From the NCBI GenBank assembly GCA_021161835.1, contig JAGGZV010000027.1, positions 1 to 38,083 on the forward strand: 38,083 bases of DNA, written 5' to 3'. Under the pieces are notes generated by a model. That model ran no database searches and was not told the DNA's origin. It saw only the letters and a program-made list of their open reading frames with translations. Below, one piece after another: positions 1,946 to 18,872 of the stretch (position 1 is its first letter; the number at the start of each line of letters is the position of its first letter). This stretch comes from Thermotogae bacterium (GTDB lineage Bacteria > Thermotogota > Thermotogae > UBA12178). A program made the translations under genes and the position numbers.

Positions 1946-2320
1946 GGCAGATTTCCTCCTCACCCTATTGTAGTATCTTTGCTGTATTTCCCATCTATCC
2001 ATCTCATGAGTTCTATATCTAGTTCTTTCACCCGATTTTCCTTTTCCCGGACTCTGACCCGCTGTGGACTCGTATTCCAATGCTATCTTGTTGCCTTGAA
2101 TTTTGATGATTATCTTCTGTTCCTGACCATTTACTACGTCACCTTTCTTACGAGTATTATCATCCGTCCAGTTTTCAAGGAATCTCAGTTCGAAGTATTG
2201 TGATATCCCTTTAAAGCCTTCCTCTCCCATTATTCCTTTCAATAACTGGTAAATATCTGCATATCCATCTGGGGAACACACTCCGACAAGACTTGACAAA
2301 TGAAACTTTTGATTGTACAA
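1928..2320 (-). CDS. hypothetical protein or gene remnant
   Basis: 130-aa ORF with some protein-like stretches (FKGISQYFELRFLENW, QKIIIKIQGNKIALEYES). TTG start overlaps the predicted aro promoter and no family was recognised. Confidence 0.3.
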   Translation of the reverse strand: MYNQKFHLSSLVGVCSPDGYADIYQLLKGIMGEEGFKGISQYFELRFLENWTDDNTRKKGDVVNGQEQKIIIKIQGNKIALEYESTAGQSPGKGKSGERTRYRTHEMDRWEIQQRYYNRVRRKSAFNYHQ

Positions 2321-2321
2321 T
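2293..2321 (+). promoter_or_regulatory. sigma-A type promoter TTGACA-N17-TACAAT for the aromatic operon leader
   Basis: TTGACA 2293-2298, 17-nt spacer, TACAAT 2316-2321. Expected start near 2328. Confidence 0.8.
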
Positions 2322-2354
2322 TTTCAAAACATCGAGCGTAAAGGTGGGTAGAAG

Positions 2355-2435
2355 GTGAAGAAAATCAGGGTTCTCCGGGCTCAGATGATCGAAAATGGAT
2401 TCTGGTTTTATAGCTATGACGGCACCTGTCCGTGA
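2355..2435 (+). CDS. leader peptide MKKIRVLRAQMIENGFWFYSYDGTCP (GTG start)
   Basis: Short ORF between promoter and terminator with the aromatic run TTC TGG TTT TAT AGC TAT (2400-2417). SD-like AGGTGG at 2342-2347. ATG 2385 is an alternative start. Confidence 0.8.
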   Translation: MKKIRVLRAQMIENGFWFYSYDGTCP

Positions 2436-2537
2436 GTAATCAGGTGCTCCGGGCAGGTGCTAAACGTTATCTGTCCGGAGCACCCAGAAGCATAGAATGG
2501 AAGGGGTCTCCGGGCAACCGGAGACCCCTTTTATTTT
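2421..2537 (+). promoter_or_regulatory. transcription attenuator with mutually exclusive helices
   Basis: P (2422-2432) pairs with 2450-2460. 1 (2443-2456) pairs with 2 (2471-2484). 2 (2472-2485) pairs with 3 (2504-2516). 3 (2503-2513) pairs with 4 (2518-2528). Confidence 0.8.
2503..2537 (+). terminator. intrinsic terminator of the aromatic leader
   Basis: GGGGTCTCCGG-GCAA-CCGGAGACCCC followed by TTTTATTTT: 11-bp perfect stem, GNRA loop, U-tract. Confidence 0.95.
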
Positions 2538-2574: not shown

Positions 2575-2925
2575 GTGATAGCGATAAGAGGTGCGACATC
2601 GGTGGAGAAGGATACGCCTGAGCATGTGCGGAGTAGAGTAAAAGAACTGTTCGAAGAGATAGTCAGTAGAAACAAGATCAGAAGAATAGAAGCGATTATC
2701 TTCTCCGTAACGAAAGATATCCAGTCTCTGAACCCTGCCACCGTTTTGCGAGAAGATCGATCCCTCGACAGCGTTGCATTGATGTGCTTTCAGGAAGCCC
2801 AGTTCAACGGTTCACCGGAAAAGATAATAAGGATTCTGATATTCTGCGATTCCGATACGAGAGAGTTTGTTTATCTGCATGGTGCTCAGAAATTGAGGCC
2901 TGATCTTGCGGAGGTGAGAGGGTGA
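2575..2925 (+). CDS. aroH: chorismate mutase, AroH type
   Basis: MIAIRGATSVEKDTPEHVRSRVKELFEEI resembles Bacillus AroH (GIRGATTVERDT). GTG start 2575 with SD GGAGGTGAT 2563-2571. Confidence 0.9.
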   Translation: MIAIRGATSVEKDTPEHVRSRVKELFEEIVSRNKIRRIEAIIFSVTKDIQSLNPATVLREDRSLDSVALMCFQEAQFNGSPEKIIRILIFCDSDTREFVYLHGAQKLRPDLAEVRG

Positions 2926-3938
2926 TAGTGGTGCTGAAACCCGGTAGCGGGGATAAGGAGGTTTCTAAAATCGAAGAATTTGTTTCCAAAAGAGGATTGA
3001 AAACCTATGTCTGGAAAGGTACACAAAGGGTGGTGGTGGGCATTGTGGGCGATCTGGAATACTTCTCATCTGAGCAGGTGGAATCCCTGGGGTGTGTGGA
3101 GAGCGTCATAAGAGTACTGAAACCGTTCAAACTGGTTTCACGTGAATTCAAGACGGAAGACACCATTGTGAAGATAGGAGATGTGACAGTCGGAAACGGT
3201 TTCTTCACCGTGATGGCAGGCCCATGCGCTGTTGAAAACAGGGAAATGATAATGGAAACGGCTGAATTTCTGGCTTCACTGGGTGTGAAGATCCTCAGGG
3301 GAGGTGCCTTCAAACCACGAACTTCTCCCTATTCCTTCCAGGGGCTCGGCGTGAAAGGTTTGGAGTACCTCAGAGAAGCTGCGGACAAATACAACATGAA
3401 GGTGGTAACCGAGGTCATGAGCGAAATCGATCTCGATACAGTAGCAGAATACAGCGATATACTGCAAATAGGCTCCAGAAACGCTCAGAATTTCTCACTG
3501 TTGAAAAAGGTCGGTGAAAAGAAAAAACCGGTGCTTCTGAAAAGAGGGTTCATGAACACCGTTGAAGAAATGCTTCTGGCAGCGGAGTATGTTGCACTGC
3601 AGGATAATATGAGCATAATTCTGTGCGAGAGAGGTATACGCACGTTTGAAAAGGCAACGAGAAATACACTGGATATCTCGGCAGTACCCGTTATTCGCTC
3701 TCAATCACATCTTCCCATTGTTGTGGATCCCAGTCATGCAGCCGGTCGAAACGATATAATAACTCCACTTGCAAAAGCGGCCATGGCAGCGGGAGCACAT
3801 GGAATCCTGGTAGAAGTACACCCCAGACCAGAAGAAGCACTCTCCGATGGAAAACAGAGCCTTTCGTTCAAGCAATTCGAAGAACTGTATCGCGAACTCA
3901 GGGAATTGTCCAAACCCCTGGGGGTGAACATGAATTGA
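2922..3938 (+). CDS. aroF: 3-deoxy-7-phosphoheptulonate (DAHP) synthase with N-terminal regulatory ferredoxin-like domain
   Basis: VMAGPCAVENREMIMETA, LRGGAFKPRTSPYSFQGLG, VDPSHAAGRND motifs. GTG start overlaps the aroH stop. Confidence 0.93.
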   Translation: MIVVLKPGSGDKEVSKIEEFVSKRGLKTYVWKGTQRVVVGIVGDLEYFSSEQVESLGCVESVIRVLKPFKLVSREFKTEDTIVKIGDVTVGNGFFTVMAGPCAVENREMIMETAEFLASLGVKILRGGAFKPRTSPYSFQGLGVKGLEYLREAADKYNMKVVTEVMSEIDLDTVAEYSDILQIGSRNAQNFSLLKKVGEKKKPVLLKRGFMNTVEEMLLAAEYVALQDNMSIILCERGIRTFEKATRNTLDISAVPVIRSQSHLPIVVDPSHAAGRNDIITPLAKAAMAAGAHGILVEVHPRPEEALSDGKQSLSFKQFEELYRELRELSKPLGVNMN

Positions 3939-4729
3939 AGAACGATGAATTCGCCGAGTTTAGAAACATCGGAATAATAGGAACGGGAACCATCGGGGGA
4001 TCTCTGGCTATCAAGTTGAAGTCTCTGGGATACAACGTATTCGCGGATGACACGGATGAGGAGATTCTGACTCTTCTCAAGAACGTTTATGGAATCAAGC
4101 CTTTGAAGGATCACGTACACGAAGATATGGACATGTTGATATTGGCGGTTCCGATGAGAGAAGAAGAAAGGCTACTCGAAACGATCGAGTTTGGAGGATT
4201 GATAATGGATGTGGCTAGCGTCAAAAAACCTTTTATGAGCATTGCAAACCGGCGAGGTTTGAGATTCGTGGGAGGGCATCCCATGGCTGGAAGCGATCGA
4301 AGCGGAATGAAAGGCTGGAATCCTGAGATGTTCGTCAAAAGGCCCTTTCTACTGTGCAAAGGCGAGCATGCATTACCGGAAGATTCAATCAAAGTTGAAA
4401 AAGTGGTGAAAGACATCGGTGGAAATCCCATCTGGTTGAAACCCGAGGAACACGATCGGATAGTTTCCAGAGTAAGTCAGGTGACTTACTTTATATCTCT
4501 CATGGCCAGGAATCTGGGTCACGGTTACGAACGGTTTGCGGGACCGGGCTATGAATCCACCACACGTCTTTCACTTCAGAATGTTGATATGGTGCTGGAT
4601 ATGGTGTTTTACAACAGAGAAAACATTCTGAAAGACCTGAAAAAAGCCAGGAATATTTTGAATGAGATCATCATGCGCATAGAAGGTAAGCAGGAGGAAG
4701 AACTGCTCAGGAGTGTGGTATTGGGATGA
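3935..4729 (+). CDS. tyrA: prephenate dehydrogenase
   Basis: NAD-binding IGIIGTGTIGGSLAIKLKSLGY; GGHPMAGSDRSG motif; operon context. Confidence 0.92.
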   Translation: MKNDEFAEFRNIGIIGTGTIGGSLAIKLKSLGYNVFADDTDEEILTLLKNVYGIKPLKDHVHEDMDMLILAVPMREEERLLETIEFGGLIMDVASVKKPFMSIANRRGLRFVGGHPMAGSDRSGMKGWNPEMFVKRPFLLCKGEHALPEDSIKVEKVVKDIGGNPIWLKPEEHDRIVSRVSQVTYFISLMARNLGHGYERFAGPGYESTTRLSLQNVDMVLDMVFYNRENILKDLKKARNILNEIIMRIEGKQEEELLRSVVLG

Positions 4730-5988
4730 AGATATCACCAGCTAAAAGGATTCGGGGTAACATAAAGGTACCACCCGATAAATCCATCACACATAGAGCT
4801 TTGATTTTCTCGGCAATAGCCCGAACACCTGCCGAACTCTGGAATCTTCTGGAATGTGATGATACGTTACGAACATTTAAAGCGCTCAAACAACTGGGTA
4901 TCCAGTTCAAAGGTGATTTCAAACATCTAGAAGTGTGGCCACGCGAATTCGCCGAACCCATTTCACCGCTGTACTGTGGAAATTCCGGTACCACCGCAAG
5001 GCTGATGACCGGATTGTTGGCGGCTAAAAAGGGATTTTACATCCTGTACGGTGATGAATCGCTCTCCAGACGACCAATGAGGAGAGTCGTGGAACCCCTG
5101 AAGAAGATGGGAGCAAATATAGCGGGAAGGAATGATGACGATAATCTTCCCATTGCCATAAAAGGTGAAAAGCTACTCGGCCACCGACACGAACTCAAGA
5201 TAGCAAGTGCACAGGTAAAAAGCGCTCTACTGCTTGCAGGCCTGAACGCGGAAGGTGAAACGGTGGTAAAAGAACCGTACAAAAGCAGGGATCACTCTGA
5301 ACGGCTTCTGAAAATCATGGGAGCCGATATCTCGGGAAATGGTTGTGAGATCATTATAAGGCCTTCAGAGCTGTCAGGTATTTCCTTCGAAATCCCCGGC
5401 GATTTTTCTTCAGCTGCTTTCTTCATAACCCTCGCCGTTCTACATCCAAACGCCGAGATTATCATCGAAGGAGTCAATTTGAACGAAACACGTCTGGGAT
5501 TGCTGAAAGCACTCAAAGATATGGGAGCAAATATCGAGTGTGAAATCGTTTCTCTCGATCCTGAACCTGTGGGTACAATCAAAGCTACATCCTCACGCTT
5601 GAAAGGAGTTGAAGTGGATGCATTGATGATACCTTCGATGATCGATGAACTCCCTCTTCTTGCCCTTGCAGGCGTCTTCGCAGAAGGAATCACCAGAGTA
5701 TCGGATGCTTACGAACTCCGAAAAAAGGAATCAGATAGGATAAAGGCAACCGTAGAAAACTTCAAAAAATTGGGAATAGAGATTGAGGAATACCCCGATG
5801 GATTTGTGATACAGGGACCTCAGAAATTGAAGGGTGGGAAAGGTGCCACGTACGGTGATCATAGAATAGCGATGATGCTTGCTATAGCTGGAGCGCTGTC
5901 GGAGGAGGGTGTCCACCTGGACGATGTCGAGTGTGTTGGCATTTCCTTCCCCACGTTTTTCCAGCTCCTGGAGGTGATAACATATTGA
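4726..5988 (+). CDS. aroA: 3-phosphoshikimate 1-carboxyvinyltransferase (EPSP synthase)
   Basis: VPPDKSITHRALIFSAIA, CGNSGTTARLMTGLLA, SDAYELRKKESDRI, DHRIAMMLAIAG motifs. Confidence 0.95.
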   Translation: MKISPAKRIRGNIKVPPDKSITHRALIFSAIARTPAELWNLLECDDTLRTFKALKQLGIQFKGDFKHLEVWPREFAEPISPLYCGNSGTTARLMTGLLAAKKGFYILYGDESLSRRPMRRVVEPLKKMGANIAGRNDDDNLPIAIKGEKLLGHRHELKIASAQVKSALLLAGLNAEGETVVKEPYKSRDHSERLLKIMGADISGNGCEIIIRPSELSGISFEIPGDFSSAAFFITLAVLHPNAEIIIEGVNLNETRLGLLKALKDMGANIECEIVSLDPEPVGTIKATSSRLKGVEVDALMIPSMIDELPLLALAGVFAEGITRVSDAYELRKKESDRIKATVENFKKLGIEIEEYPDGFVIQGPQKLKGGKGATYGDHRIAMMLAIAGALSEEGVHLDDVECVGISFPTFFQLLEVITY

Positions 5989-6767
5989 AATTTTCCATCA
6001 TCGGCTATCCTCTGGCACACAGTCTTTCGCCCAGAATATACAACACCTATTTTGAGAGAATAAGCGTGAATGCACGTTACACACCTCTGGAAATCAAACC
6101 TGAAGAGTTCGAAGAGAGAATATGGGAAGTTGTCAGGGATTTTCGAGGATTCAACGTGACCATTCCACACAAAGAACGAGTGACTCCATTCGTTGAACTC
6201 GATGAGGAAAGCAGGATCATAGGTGCGGTAAATTGTGTGTGTGAAGGTAAAGGACACAACACCGACTGGATAGGATTTCTCAGGTCTTTAAGAGACATCA
6301 AACTCGTGGAACCCGTTACAGTGGTTGGAGCAGGTGGAGCCGCGCGAGCCATCGTGTTTGGATTGGCAAAGCTCAACGTGAAGAACATTCATCTCGTGAA
6401 TCGGACGATAGAAAGAGCAAAACACATGGCAAAACTGTTCTCATCCATAGGTCTTAGAATAAAGGTATGGGACCTGCCGTCTCTGTCACGGGCCGTTTGT
6501 GAATCTTACACACTTATAAACACCACTTCCCTTGGTCTGAAAGGAGAAAATCTTCCATTGAAACCAGATGAAATGTGTCATCTTACACTGGTCTACGATG
6601 TCATATATTCTGAAACGCCGCTTCAAACCGTGGCCAGAAAAATGGGGATACCTGTTGTCGACGGGAAAGCCATGCTGTACCATCAGGCGGTTGAAAATCT
6701 CAAAATCTGGCGATTGCTGAAGGATCCAAAAGCTTTTGAAGAAGTTTTTAAGGAGGTGGTGAGTTGA
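5985..6767 (+). CDS. aroE: shikimate dehydrogenase
   Basis: KFSIIGYPLAHSLSPRIYN, FNVTIPHKE, GAGGAARAIVFGL. TTG start 5985 after SD GGAGGTGAT; the ORF-track start at 5931 is upstream extension. Confidence 0.94.
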   Translation: MKFSIIGYPLAHSLSPRIYNTYFERISVNARYTPLEIKPEEFEERIWEVVRDFRGFNVTIPHKERVTPFVELDEESRIIGAVNCVCEGKGHNTDWIGFLRSLRDIKLVEPVTVVGAGGAARAIVFGLAKLNVKNIHLVNRTIERAKHMAKLFSSIGLRIKVWDLPSLSRAVCESYTLINTTSLGLKGENLPLKPDEMCHLTLVYDVIYSETPLQTVARKMGIPVVDGKAMLYHQAVENLKIWRLLKDPKAFEEVFKEVVS

Positions 6768-7879
6768 AAATAACGATAGCAGGCGATTCACACGGACCAT
6801 GTATGATCGGTGTAATGGAAGGTGTCCCGGCCGGATTCAAAATAGATATGAAAAAGATCAATCACGATCTGTCAAGACGTCAGGGAGGATATGGTCGAGG
6901 AAACAGAATGAAACTCGAACAGGATGAGGTACGGATAATTGCGGGAACATGGAAAGGCTACACAACGGGTGCTCCACTGGTACTGAGCGTAGAGAACAGA
7001 GCATCCAACCCTGTCGACAAACCACGCACCGTTCCCAGACCTGGACACGCAGATTATTCGGCGTGGGCAAAATACGGATTACCGGACTTGAACGCCTATA
7101 CGGAAAGGAGCAGTGCGCGTTCCACGGTGACGTGGGTAGCGCTGGGCAGCGTGGCCAAGCAGTTCGTCGAACTCTTCAACGTAAAGGTGTATGGATACGT
7201 GGTGGCCATAGGATCGGTATGCGCAGAAACGATCCCCGAAAAGCGTGAAGAATTGCTAAAACTGCGCGATGAATCGGCGGTTTACTGCCCGGATTCTCAG
7301 GCAACGAAAAAAATGCTGGAGGAGATAGATAGGGCGAAAGAATCGGGAGACACCCTTGGAGGAAGTTTCAGGGTTATAGCAGAAGGTGTACCGGCAGGAT
7401 TGGGGGGATACTCGACCCCATTCGAAAGGCTCGATTCACGTATAGCTTCTTTCTTTTTGGCCATTCCCTCAATAAAAGGTGTGATCATTGGATGCGAAGA
7501 CTTTTACCGCCCTGGTAGTCAGTACCATGATGAGTTCCACATTGAAAATGGAAAAATCAGAAGAAAGTCCAACAACGCGGGTGGAATAGAAGGAGGTATA
7601 ACGAACGGAGAACCCATTGTGGTTACTGCCTATCTCAAACCCATTCCCACTCTCAGGAAATCTCTAAATTCGGTAGATTTGAAGAGAAAAGAACCAGCAA
7701 AGACATCGTATATACGTTCGGATACAACGGTGGTGCCAGCTGCATCCGTGGTAGGGGAAGCGGCACTCGCACTCGTGCTCATGGATGCATGGCTTGAAAG
7801 ATGGGGATGTGACAACGTGGACAGTATACGGAGGAGGTACCATGAGGATATTTCTGGTTGGCATGATGGGATCCGGTAA
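6764..7879 (+). CDS. aroC: chorismate synthase
   Basis: AGDSHGPCMIGVMEGVPAG, RRQGGYGRGNRM, GGIEGGITNGEPIV motifs. Confidence 0.95.
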   Translation: MKITIAGDSHGPCMIGVMEGVPAGFKIDMKKINHDLSRRQGGYGRGNRMKLEQDEVRIIAGTWKGYTTGAPLVLSVENRASNPVDKPRTVPRPGHADYSAWAKYGLPDLNAYTERSSARSTVTWVALGSVAKQFVELFNVKVYGYVVAIGSVCAETIPEKREELLKLRDESAVYCPDSQATKKMLEEIDRAKESGDTLGGSFRVIAEGVPAGLGGYSTPFERLDSRIASFFLAIPSIKGVIIGCEDFYRPGSQYHDEFHIENGKIRRKSNNAGGIEGGITNGEPIVVTAYLKPIPTLRKSLNSVDLKRKEPAKTSYIRSDTTVVPAASVVGEAALALVLMDAWLERWGCDNVDSIRRRYHEDISGWHDGIR

Positions 7880-9347
7880 AACAACGGTGGGTAAAAAAAT
7901 AGCGGAAGCTCTGGATATGAAATTTCTGGATATGGATGAAATGATAGAAATGCGCCACGGGAAGAGTGTAATGAAGATCTTTGAAGATGAGGGTGAAAAA
8001 GTCTTTCGAGAATCTGAGAAACGAATCCTGAAAGAAATAATCTCTGAAGAAGATGGTGTAGTGGTGGCCACCGGTGGTGGTGTGGTACTCGACCCGGAAA
8101 ACAGGGAATTGCTGAAAAAAGAAAAAACTTTTTTTCTAGATGTACCTCTGGAAGAACTCATGATACGTGTGGATCCATTTACACGCCCGTTGATAAAAGA
8201 CGACGTCAATAAACTGAAGAAAATATGGGAAGAAAGAAAAGAACTCTACATGGAATTCGAAAAGATACCCCTTCGAAATCTTAAACCATGGGAAGCTGTG
8301 GCACGGATCTGCATGGAAGTGGTGAATGGCAATGAAATGATCATAGAATCGAACGTTCATCCCCTGATCATCAAGCTGGGGGGATTGAAAAAAGCGAGAA
8401 AATACAGATACGTTTTCACCACCGAAAGAATAGCCAGGATATACGAACCCTATCTCCCGGAAGATTCACTGATATTACCCGATGGCGAAGAAACGAAAAG
8501 CTTTGACTACTTGAAGGTATGCTACGAATACCTCATGGAAAGGAAGATAACCAAAGATGAAACGTTGATCGGAATCGGGGGAGGAGCGCTTACAGACCTC
8601 ACAGGGTTCGTGTCTTCCACTTTCAAGAGAGGGACGGGATTGGTCCTCTTTCCAACTACCCTGCTTGCACAGGTGGATGCCGCTGTAGGTGGCAAAAATG
8701 CGATAAATTTCGGAGGCGTCAAGAACATCGTGGGAACGATCAAAATGCCAGATGAGGTCATCATGGATCCTGTTGTGGTGCTGTCCATGGACGATGACAG
8801 ATTTCGAGAAGGACTGGTGGAAGCATTCAAAATGAGTTTGTTATCCGGCAGAGGATTGGAAATATTCGTAGAAAAGACAACCGAACTCCTGAAGCGGAAG
8901 CTGTCAGCACTCCTCGAAATAGTGAGAATATCCGCTGAGGAAAAGTTGAAAGTGGTGGAAAAAGATCCCAATGATGCGGGGGTGAGGAAAATACTCAATC
9001 TGGGTCACACCCTGGGACATGCCGTGGAGTCCATTCTGGGTATTCCACACGGCCTGGCAGTAGCATGGGGAATTGAAAAGGAAATGGCTTTATTCGTCAA
9101 AAAAGGAATGGTGGAGAAGAAGTTCTATGAAGAAGTCCGCAACGTGCTCGAACGAATTGTGGATTTTTCCTCGTTCGAAAGTGTTAAAGCGGAAGAAGTG
9201 ATGCAATTGGTGGTTAACGATAAGAAAGGATCCAGGACGGGAAAGATTCACATACCGATTGTCGATGGACCGGGGAAAGTGCAGCTCGTGCCCATTGAAC
9301 CGGTTGAATTGATGGAGGTGTTAAGAGATGAAGATACTGGTAATTAA
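7842..9347 (+). CDS. aroKB: bifunctional shikimate kinase / 3-dehydroquinate synthase
   Basis: N-terminal kinase P-loop MRIFLVGMMGSGKTTVGKKIAEAL fused to DHQ synthase (DETLIGIGGGALTDLTGFVSSTFKRG, LNLGHTLGHAVE). ATG 7842 with SD GGAGGAGGT. Confidence 0.94.
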   Translation: MRIFLVGMMGSGKTTVGKKIAEALDMKFLDMDEMIEMRHGKSVMKIFEDEGEKVFRESEKRILKEIISEEDGVVVATGGGVVLDPENRELLKKEKTFFLDVPLEELMIRVDPFTRPLIKDDVNKLKKIWEERKELYMEFEKIPLRNLKPWEAVARICMEVVNGNEMIIESNVHPLIIKLGGLKKARKYRYVFTTERIARIYEPYLPEDSLILPDGEETKSFDYLKVCYEYLMERKITKDETLIGIGGGALTDLTGFVSSTFKRGTGLVLFPTTLLAQVDAAVGGKNAINFGGVKNIVGTIKMPDEVIMDPVVVLSMDDDRFREGLVEAFKMSLLSGRGLEIFVEKTTELLKRKLSALLEIVRISAEEKLKVVEKDPNDAGVRKILNLGHTLGHAVESILGIPHGLAVAWGIEKEMALFVKKGMVEKKFYEEVRNVLERIVDFSSFESVKAEEVMQLVVNDKKGSRTGKIHIPIVDGPGKVQLVPIEPVELMEVLRDEDTGN

Positions 9348-9771
9348 TGGACCAAATCTCAATATGCTACATCTTCGTACGACGGAGCATTACGGTAATA
9401 AATCTTATGAACAGCTGGTCAAACTTCTGAAAACCTGGGGTAGAAAAAAAGAGGTAGAAGTGGAGGTTTTTCAATCGAATCACGAAGGGGAAATAATAGA
9501 TAGAATCCACAGGCTGGACTACGATGCCCTCGTCATAAATCCTGGAGCCTTCACACACTACAGCTATGCCATCAGGGATGCGCTGGAACTGGTGGATAAA
9601 CCCAAAATAGAGGTGCATCTCTCCAACATTCATTCGAGGGAGGATTTCAGAAAAGTGAGCATAACAGCTCAAACATGTGAAGGTGTTATAAGCGGCTTCA
9701 AAGAATACTCATATATACTGGCGCTGGAATACATTGTAGAAAAATATGGATCTGGTGAGCGCATGCCATGA
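9328..9771 (+). CDS. aroQ: type II 3-dehydroquinate dehydratase
   Basis: MKILVINGPNLNMLHLRTTEHYG, QSNHEGEIIDRIH, INPGAFTHYSYAIRDAL, EVHLSNIHSREDFRKVS motifs. Confidence 0.93.
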   Translation: MKILVINGPNLNMLHLRTTEHYGNKSYEQLVKLLKTWGRKKEVEVEVFQSNHEGEIIDRIHRLDYDALVINPGAFTHYSYAIRDALELVDKPKIEVHLSNIHSREDFRKVSITAQTCEGVISGFKEYSYILALEYIVEKYGSGERMP

Positions 9772-18742: not shown

Positions 18743-18763
18743 AAAATCTATGCTTTCGATACC

Positions 18764-18863
18764 GCCCTTCCCTCCCTCCGCCGGCATTACCCGGATCAGG
18801 TTCTGGGGTCGAGGGTTTCCACCCTCCTCTCAGCCCCGGTATCAGGAGCTCCCCCGGAAGGGC
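18764..18863 (-). ncRNA. TPP riboswitch (THI element)
   Basis: Minus strand GGGGCTGAGAGG...GACCCCAGAACCTGATCCGGGTAATGCCGGCGGAGGGA with 8-bp P1 (GCCCTTCC/GGAAGGGC). Confidence 0.96.
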
Positions 18864-18872
18864 ACCATTCAG

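Follow-up and report, generated by a model that had tools for sequence, protein, structure and literature searches.

The RNA that precedes the shikimate/aromatic operon in the window, the 38,083-nucleotide Thermotogae contig stretch analyzed here, very probably acts as a ribosome-timed transcription attenuator that would tune the operon to the availability of charged Phe-, Trp- and Tyr-tRNA. At its center is a fifth RNA segment, P, lying between the sensing codons and the segments of a conventional attenuator, and pairing with segment 1 (Table 1). The initial annotation had noticed this helix; the observation holds up and its reading is in essence correct, and we infer the function from folding and from comparison with related leaders. 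The promoter, ribosome-binding site, terminator and target operon all fit, which supports the attenuator reading, and the promoter (TTGACA-N17-TACAAT) is identical in front of the related leaders L002 and L003. The folding free energy of positions 2331-2540 lies 8 standard deviations under that of dinucleotide shuffles. Downstream of the leader is a complete shikimate operon, in which the NCBIfam matches of tyrA and aroE fall under the curated cut-offs yet are unambiguous.

Table 1 Elements of the leader and its target operon, in window coordinates.
Feature	Position	Strand	Remarks
Sigma-70 type promoter, TTGACA-17-TACAAT	2293..2321	+	11 of 12 consensus positions match
Likely ribosome-binding site, AAAGGTGGG	2340..2348	+	~8 nt 5′ of the GTG at 2355
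Leader peptide VKKIRVLRAQMIENGFWFYSYDGTCP	2355..2435	+	GTG start, TGA stop; from sequence; lineage-wide counterparts, L002 and L003 included
Segment 0	2368..2391	+	Inside the peptide gene; partner is segment 2 in untranslated RNA
Sensing codons TTC TGG TTT TAT AGC TAT	2400..2417	+	Phe Trp Phe Tyr Ser Tyr
Segment P	2421..2438	+	Core 2422-2432, extension 2434-2438 across the stop codon; pairs with 2445-2461
Segment 1	2443..2461	+	Partner is P (readthrough state) or segment 2 (termination state)
Segment 2	2468..2484	+	Alternative partners: 1 (17 bp, 2443-2459), 3 (2472-2480:2508-2516), 0
Intrinsic terminator	2503..2537	+	Arm 3 2503-2513, arm 4 2518-2528, U-rich tail 2529-2537; covarying stem
AroH-type monofunctional chorismate mutase	2575..2925	+	TIGR01796 above cut-off; PF07736
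DAHP synthase with N-terminal ferredoxin-like domain	2922..3938	+	TIGR01361, PF00793, PF18152; best solved relative 1rzm
Remaining operon: tyrA, aroA, aroE, aroC, aroK-aroB fusion, aroQ	3935..9771	+	NCBIfam matches

Two further features of the window are recorded here. Positions 792-1913, just 5′ of the operon, encode an archaeal-type ATPase_2 family protein with a winged-helix end, and a TPP riboswitch (Rfam RF00059, 68 bits) is found on the minus strand at 18755-18865.

We propose that RNA polymerase makes the leader RNA as a ribosome translates the 26-codon peptide, whose TGA stop (2433-2435) is directly 3′ of the P core. A ribosome stalled in FWFY (2400-2411) would leave P exposed to pair with segment 1; this helix, assumed to hold until segment 3 emerges, would keep segment 1 from segment 2, letting 2:3 form, block the terminator and allow the operon to be transcribed. 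A ribosome that proceeds to the stop codon would cover P, in which case 1:2 and terminator 3:4 would form and transcription would end. If the window leader is not translated at all, segment 0 would take segment 2, giving termination by default.

In the window, P (GCACCTGTCCG, 2422-2432) pairs with CGGGCAGGTGC (2450-2460) over 11 consecutive base pairs with one G-U (-20.8 kcal/mol), just as first described, and CAGGTGC occurs at both 2441-2447 and 2454-2460; the positions originally assigned to the aromatic codons and the stop codon are likewise correct. The helix is longer than first noted, however, as 2421-2432 and 2434-2438 pair with 2445-2461 to give 17 base pairs with one bulged U (-28.9 kcal/mol), taking in the leader stop codon. 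Neither this extension, nor the 0:2 pairing, nor the lineage-wide family of leaders described below figured in the initial annotation. Judged on the window sequence alone, P:1 is moderately unusual, with 59 of 5000 shuffles of the codon region pairing at least as well. The argument that a stalled ribosome cannot reach segment 1 also holds, since an A site at 2415 places the leading edge at ~2427-2430, short of segment 1, whose first nucleotide is 2443. In that position the ribosome already covers half of P, and this last Tyr codon is for that reason predicted not to give readthrough.

A DNA search with the leader gave convincing matches in two same-family genomes only; we therefore took orthologous DAHP synthase loci from the window’s class and examined the DNA upstream of them. 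Short open reading frames with runs of Phe, Trp and Tyr codons precede DAHP synthase in most families examined. The encoded peptides end in GFWFYSYDGTCP in the window, in CFWFYYIDTCP and YFWFYYTSTCP in the same family, and in NYYYFWFNRGTCP (family f11), EYYYYFRWGVYP (f5) and SWINAYYYYYNNRSICL (f9), each followed by the stop codon. One f11 locus, L042, encodes a DAHP synthase that matches PDB chain 1rzm, the Thermotoga maritima enzyme, with full identity across 338 residues; this match would place the lineage in the Thermotogota. Seventeen distinct five-segment leaders from four families (f1, f5, f9 and f11) could be aligned without difficulty.

Conservation of P:1, which the initial annotation had named as a check on its proposal, is evident across these 17 distinct leaders, in which 98.5% of cells are paired; sliding the partner lowers pairing to 31-49%. 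Seven of the 16 pairs are altered on both sides, and double-change cells number 26, against 7.8 ± 3.2 in shuffles, none of 500 of which reaches 26; the leaders are mutually related, such that these shuffle counts are not probabilities, but the double changes are spread over more than one family and more than one pair. Helices 1:2 and 3:4 covary as well. The antiterminator 2:3 is retained in f1, f5 and f11, and inspection of f9 points to a shifted register, in which the partner of CTCCGGAT is the loop/arm 4 sequence ATCCGGAG; the conservation count for 2:3 covers the first register and not this shifted one. The residues encoded by P vary by family (TCP, VYP, ICL or ICS before the stop) and P remains complementary to its own segment 1, indicating that it is the RNA rather than the peptide that is conserved at P.

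A covariance model built from the 17 leaders recovered two further five-segment leaders, L108 and L109, with peptides ending in STYR and KRP, in which P is again complementary to segment 1. Two weak matches of the same model, L114 and L115, look like terminators 3′ of unrelated genes. The window’s genome contains one copy of the attenuator, a search for a second having found none. No aromatic leader accompanies the chorismate mutase gene of family f6 (L005), where the preceding gene is dxr-like.

The dependence of the structure on ribosome position was followed by occlusion folding, an equilibrium calculation in which the ribosome footprint is kept single-stranded and the transcript ends before arm 4. 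In the window, A sites at 2400-2411 (through the Tyr codon at 2409) favor P:1 together with 2:3, i.e. readthrough, and from the Ser codon at 2412 on, 1:2 is favored. All 17 leaders switch from 2:3 to 1:2 in the later aromatic run or just after it, the P:1/2:3 state being weakly favored or evenly matched in f5 leaders L007 and L008. The boundary in the window shifts by no more than about one codon for footprint edges of +10 to +15 and temperatures of 37-75 °C; with the edge at +15, the footprint extends into segment 1, and for this reason even a ribosome at the stop codon scores as readthrough at 37 and 60 °C. The logic put forward at the outset, with free P giving P:1 and 2:3 and covered P giving 1:2 and 3:4, is thus what constrained folding returns for the window and 16 relatives. 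With transcript ends at 2488-2508, the equilibrium can favor 1:2 even when P is free, and the logic therefore needs either slow displacement of P:1 or quick emergence of segment 3; at a transcript end of 2516, P:1 and 2:3 are favored again.

A rival reading is that P:1 serves mainly as a hairpin at which RNA polymerase pauses, giving the ribosome time to catch up, and that the choice is left to 1:2 versus 2:3 alone. The 1:2 helix of the trp leader is such a pause hairpin, and in stepwise folding no strong hairpin forms before P:1, whose completion by ~2461 makes it a natural synchronizing pause site. We nonetheless consider this reading improbable, given that a stalled ribosome cannot reach segment 1, so that without P:1 the 1:2 helix and termination would proceed unhindered, and that shuffling P alone abolishes the readthrough state in folding (across 11 leaders, 0-8 of every 100 trials still favor readthrough). 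A pause role and a switch role for P:1 are not exclusive.

The identical final residues (TCP-stop) of f1 and f11 leaders might suggest a nascent arrest peptide, with the conserved end acting as a peptide signal. Other leaders end in VYP, ICL, ICS, STYR or KRP with the RNA complementarity retained, however, and the conserved feature of the peptide is the run of aromatic codons, whose order varies, rendering an arrest peptide very unlikely. The gene 5′ of the operon is unrelated to it and is set apart by an intergenic stretch, which could mean that the terminator merely ends the upstream transcript and that the hairpins are incidental, but a near-consensus promoter and the leader reading frame lie in between, several families share the architecture upstream of this operon, and every helix covaries, so that we find this explanation scarcely credible.

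Segment 0 would add a default state to this switch. Its pairing with segment 2 in the window (-29.0 kcal/mol) is matched by 2 of 5000 shuffles, and by 2 of 1000 in a second test, and both full-length and stepwise folding of the untranslated RNA yield 0:2, P:1 and the terminator. We propose that segment 0 may serve as a default-off lock, capturing segment 2 in the absence of translation and leaving the terminator free. A single stalled ribosome hides just the end of segment 0, and a queued ribosome would hide the segment. The f9 leaders L048-L054 and L073 carry an analogue, CCTGGATAAATGCA (peptide SWINA), just 5′ of the Tyr codons; 0-20 of 1000 shuffles pair equally well. A shuffle test for segment 0 in f11, f5 and the two nearest relatives of the window did not find it, and the untranslated RNA of f11 and of the two nearest relatives is predicted to read through.

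Simpler attenuators also precede DAHP synthase in this lineage (L009-L016, L020-L028, L065-L068, L076-L079 and L083). In f4, f7, f10 and one f2 genome, the stretch that immediately follows the aromatic codons is itself the pairing partner of the terminator's 5′ arm, and in most of this set occlusion folding shows sequestration of that arm dropping toward the last aromatic codons. Leaders are found before other genes as well. In L111 and L112 (f7; ~1455-1611, reverse complement), a peptide ending in NIINWWWHLG and a terminator precede an anthranilate synthase component I-like gene, and this leader resembles a Trp-only attenuator of the same lineage. In L113 (f3, 1459-1615), ISVYYFWYKTRPSVGFVCL and a terminator precede the gene of an apparent ABC transporter substrate-binding protein, perhaps part of an aromatic amino acid importer. 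Upstream of trpE in the window’s genome (G000 C35, L118), no leader reading frame or terminator hairpin is evident, a reading frame lying immediately upstream.

Orthologous operons preceded by attenuators of simple or multi-segment form provide a natural comparative series for the gain and loss of segments, with opposite untranslated default states predicted in different species. One possible, though decidedly tentative, order runs from a minimal form in which P pairs with the terminator arm, to the five-segment form, to a five-segment form with the 0:2 lock, gained separately in the window’s lineage and in f9, the lock turning an untranslated default of readthrough (predicted in Thermotoga) into one of termination. 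If true, the sensing peptide would be a fixed element, with topology and default state as modules around it that can evolve. The Thermotoga phylum is often called deep-branching. According to a 2013 survey, the known amino-acid attenuators may stem from gamma-proteobacteria (PMC3766115). A search of the open-access literature found no account of such attenuation by ribosomes in Thermotoga and its relatives, and we provisionally regard the lineage-wide aromatic family as novel.

The window’s leader belongs to a known kind, ribosome-mediated attenuation, of which it is a new variant that is widely distributed in the lineage. It has the general hallmarks of that kind: a reading frame rich in end-product codons, a terminator with an exclusive antiterminator and, in folding, a structure selected by the ribosome. 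The Rfam amino-acid leaders (Trp, His, Leu, Thr and Phe) gave no match at the gathering threshold or at E ≤ 1, and the T-box covariance model gave none; weak Rfam scores for BjrC68 and Dictyoglomi-1 are far under threshold and resemble terminator matches. Aromatic codons also precede a DAHP synthase gene in the aroR-aroF leader of Corynebacterium glutamicum, a ribosome-mediated attenuator with Phe-Tyr-Phe codons that is reported, as cited, to respond to Phe and not to Tyr (Neshat et al. 2014, cited in PMC11802643); that leader belongs to another phylum and has Phe-Tyr-Phe only, and the likeness is drawn apart from RNA topology. The uORFC-13-1 motif before aroF of Acholeplasma, a proposed aromatic uORF with a terminator ahead of the DAHP synthase gene, is similar in layout rather than in detailed structure, and differs in its restriction to Acholeplasma and environmental sequences and in Phe codons that derive from a U run (PMC8632094).

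The topology had at first been likened to both his- and pheA-type leaders. The pheA half of this comparison does not stand, as the E. coli pheA leader is four-segment and trp-like. Shared with trp and pheA are the peptide with sensing codons, the anti-antiterminator 1:2, the antiterminator 2:3 and the terminator 3:4. In the trp leader, a stalled ribosome masks segment 1 itself; in the window, the codons end ~26 nt 5′ of segment 1, the leading edge (~2430) falls short of its start at 2443, and the fifth segment P does the work. The his half holds, the his leader of Salmonella and E. coli being a close parallel (PMC4046918). There, a stalled ribosome gives B:C and D:E, a ribosome at the stop codon gives the E:F terminator, and the off state comprises C:D and E:F, with A:B as the untranslated default (PMC4046918). 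Segments P, 1, 2, 3 and 4 of the window correspond to B, C, D, E and F, P:1 and 2:3 opposing 1:2 and 3:4 (PMC4046918). A his-like A:B pairing was sought in f1 and f11 and was absent, with weak signals in some f9 leaders, and the upstream RNA of the window pairs with P no better than chance (306 of 500 shuffles). The two systems thus differ in their codons, His there and Phe, Trp and Tyr here, and in their default state, which the his leader derives from A:B; in the window and the f9 leaders, segment 2, the equivalent of D, has segment 0 as a further partner, and in the window this pairing would give default termination.
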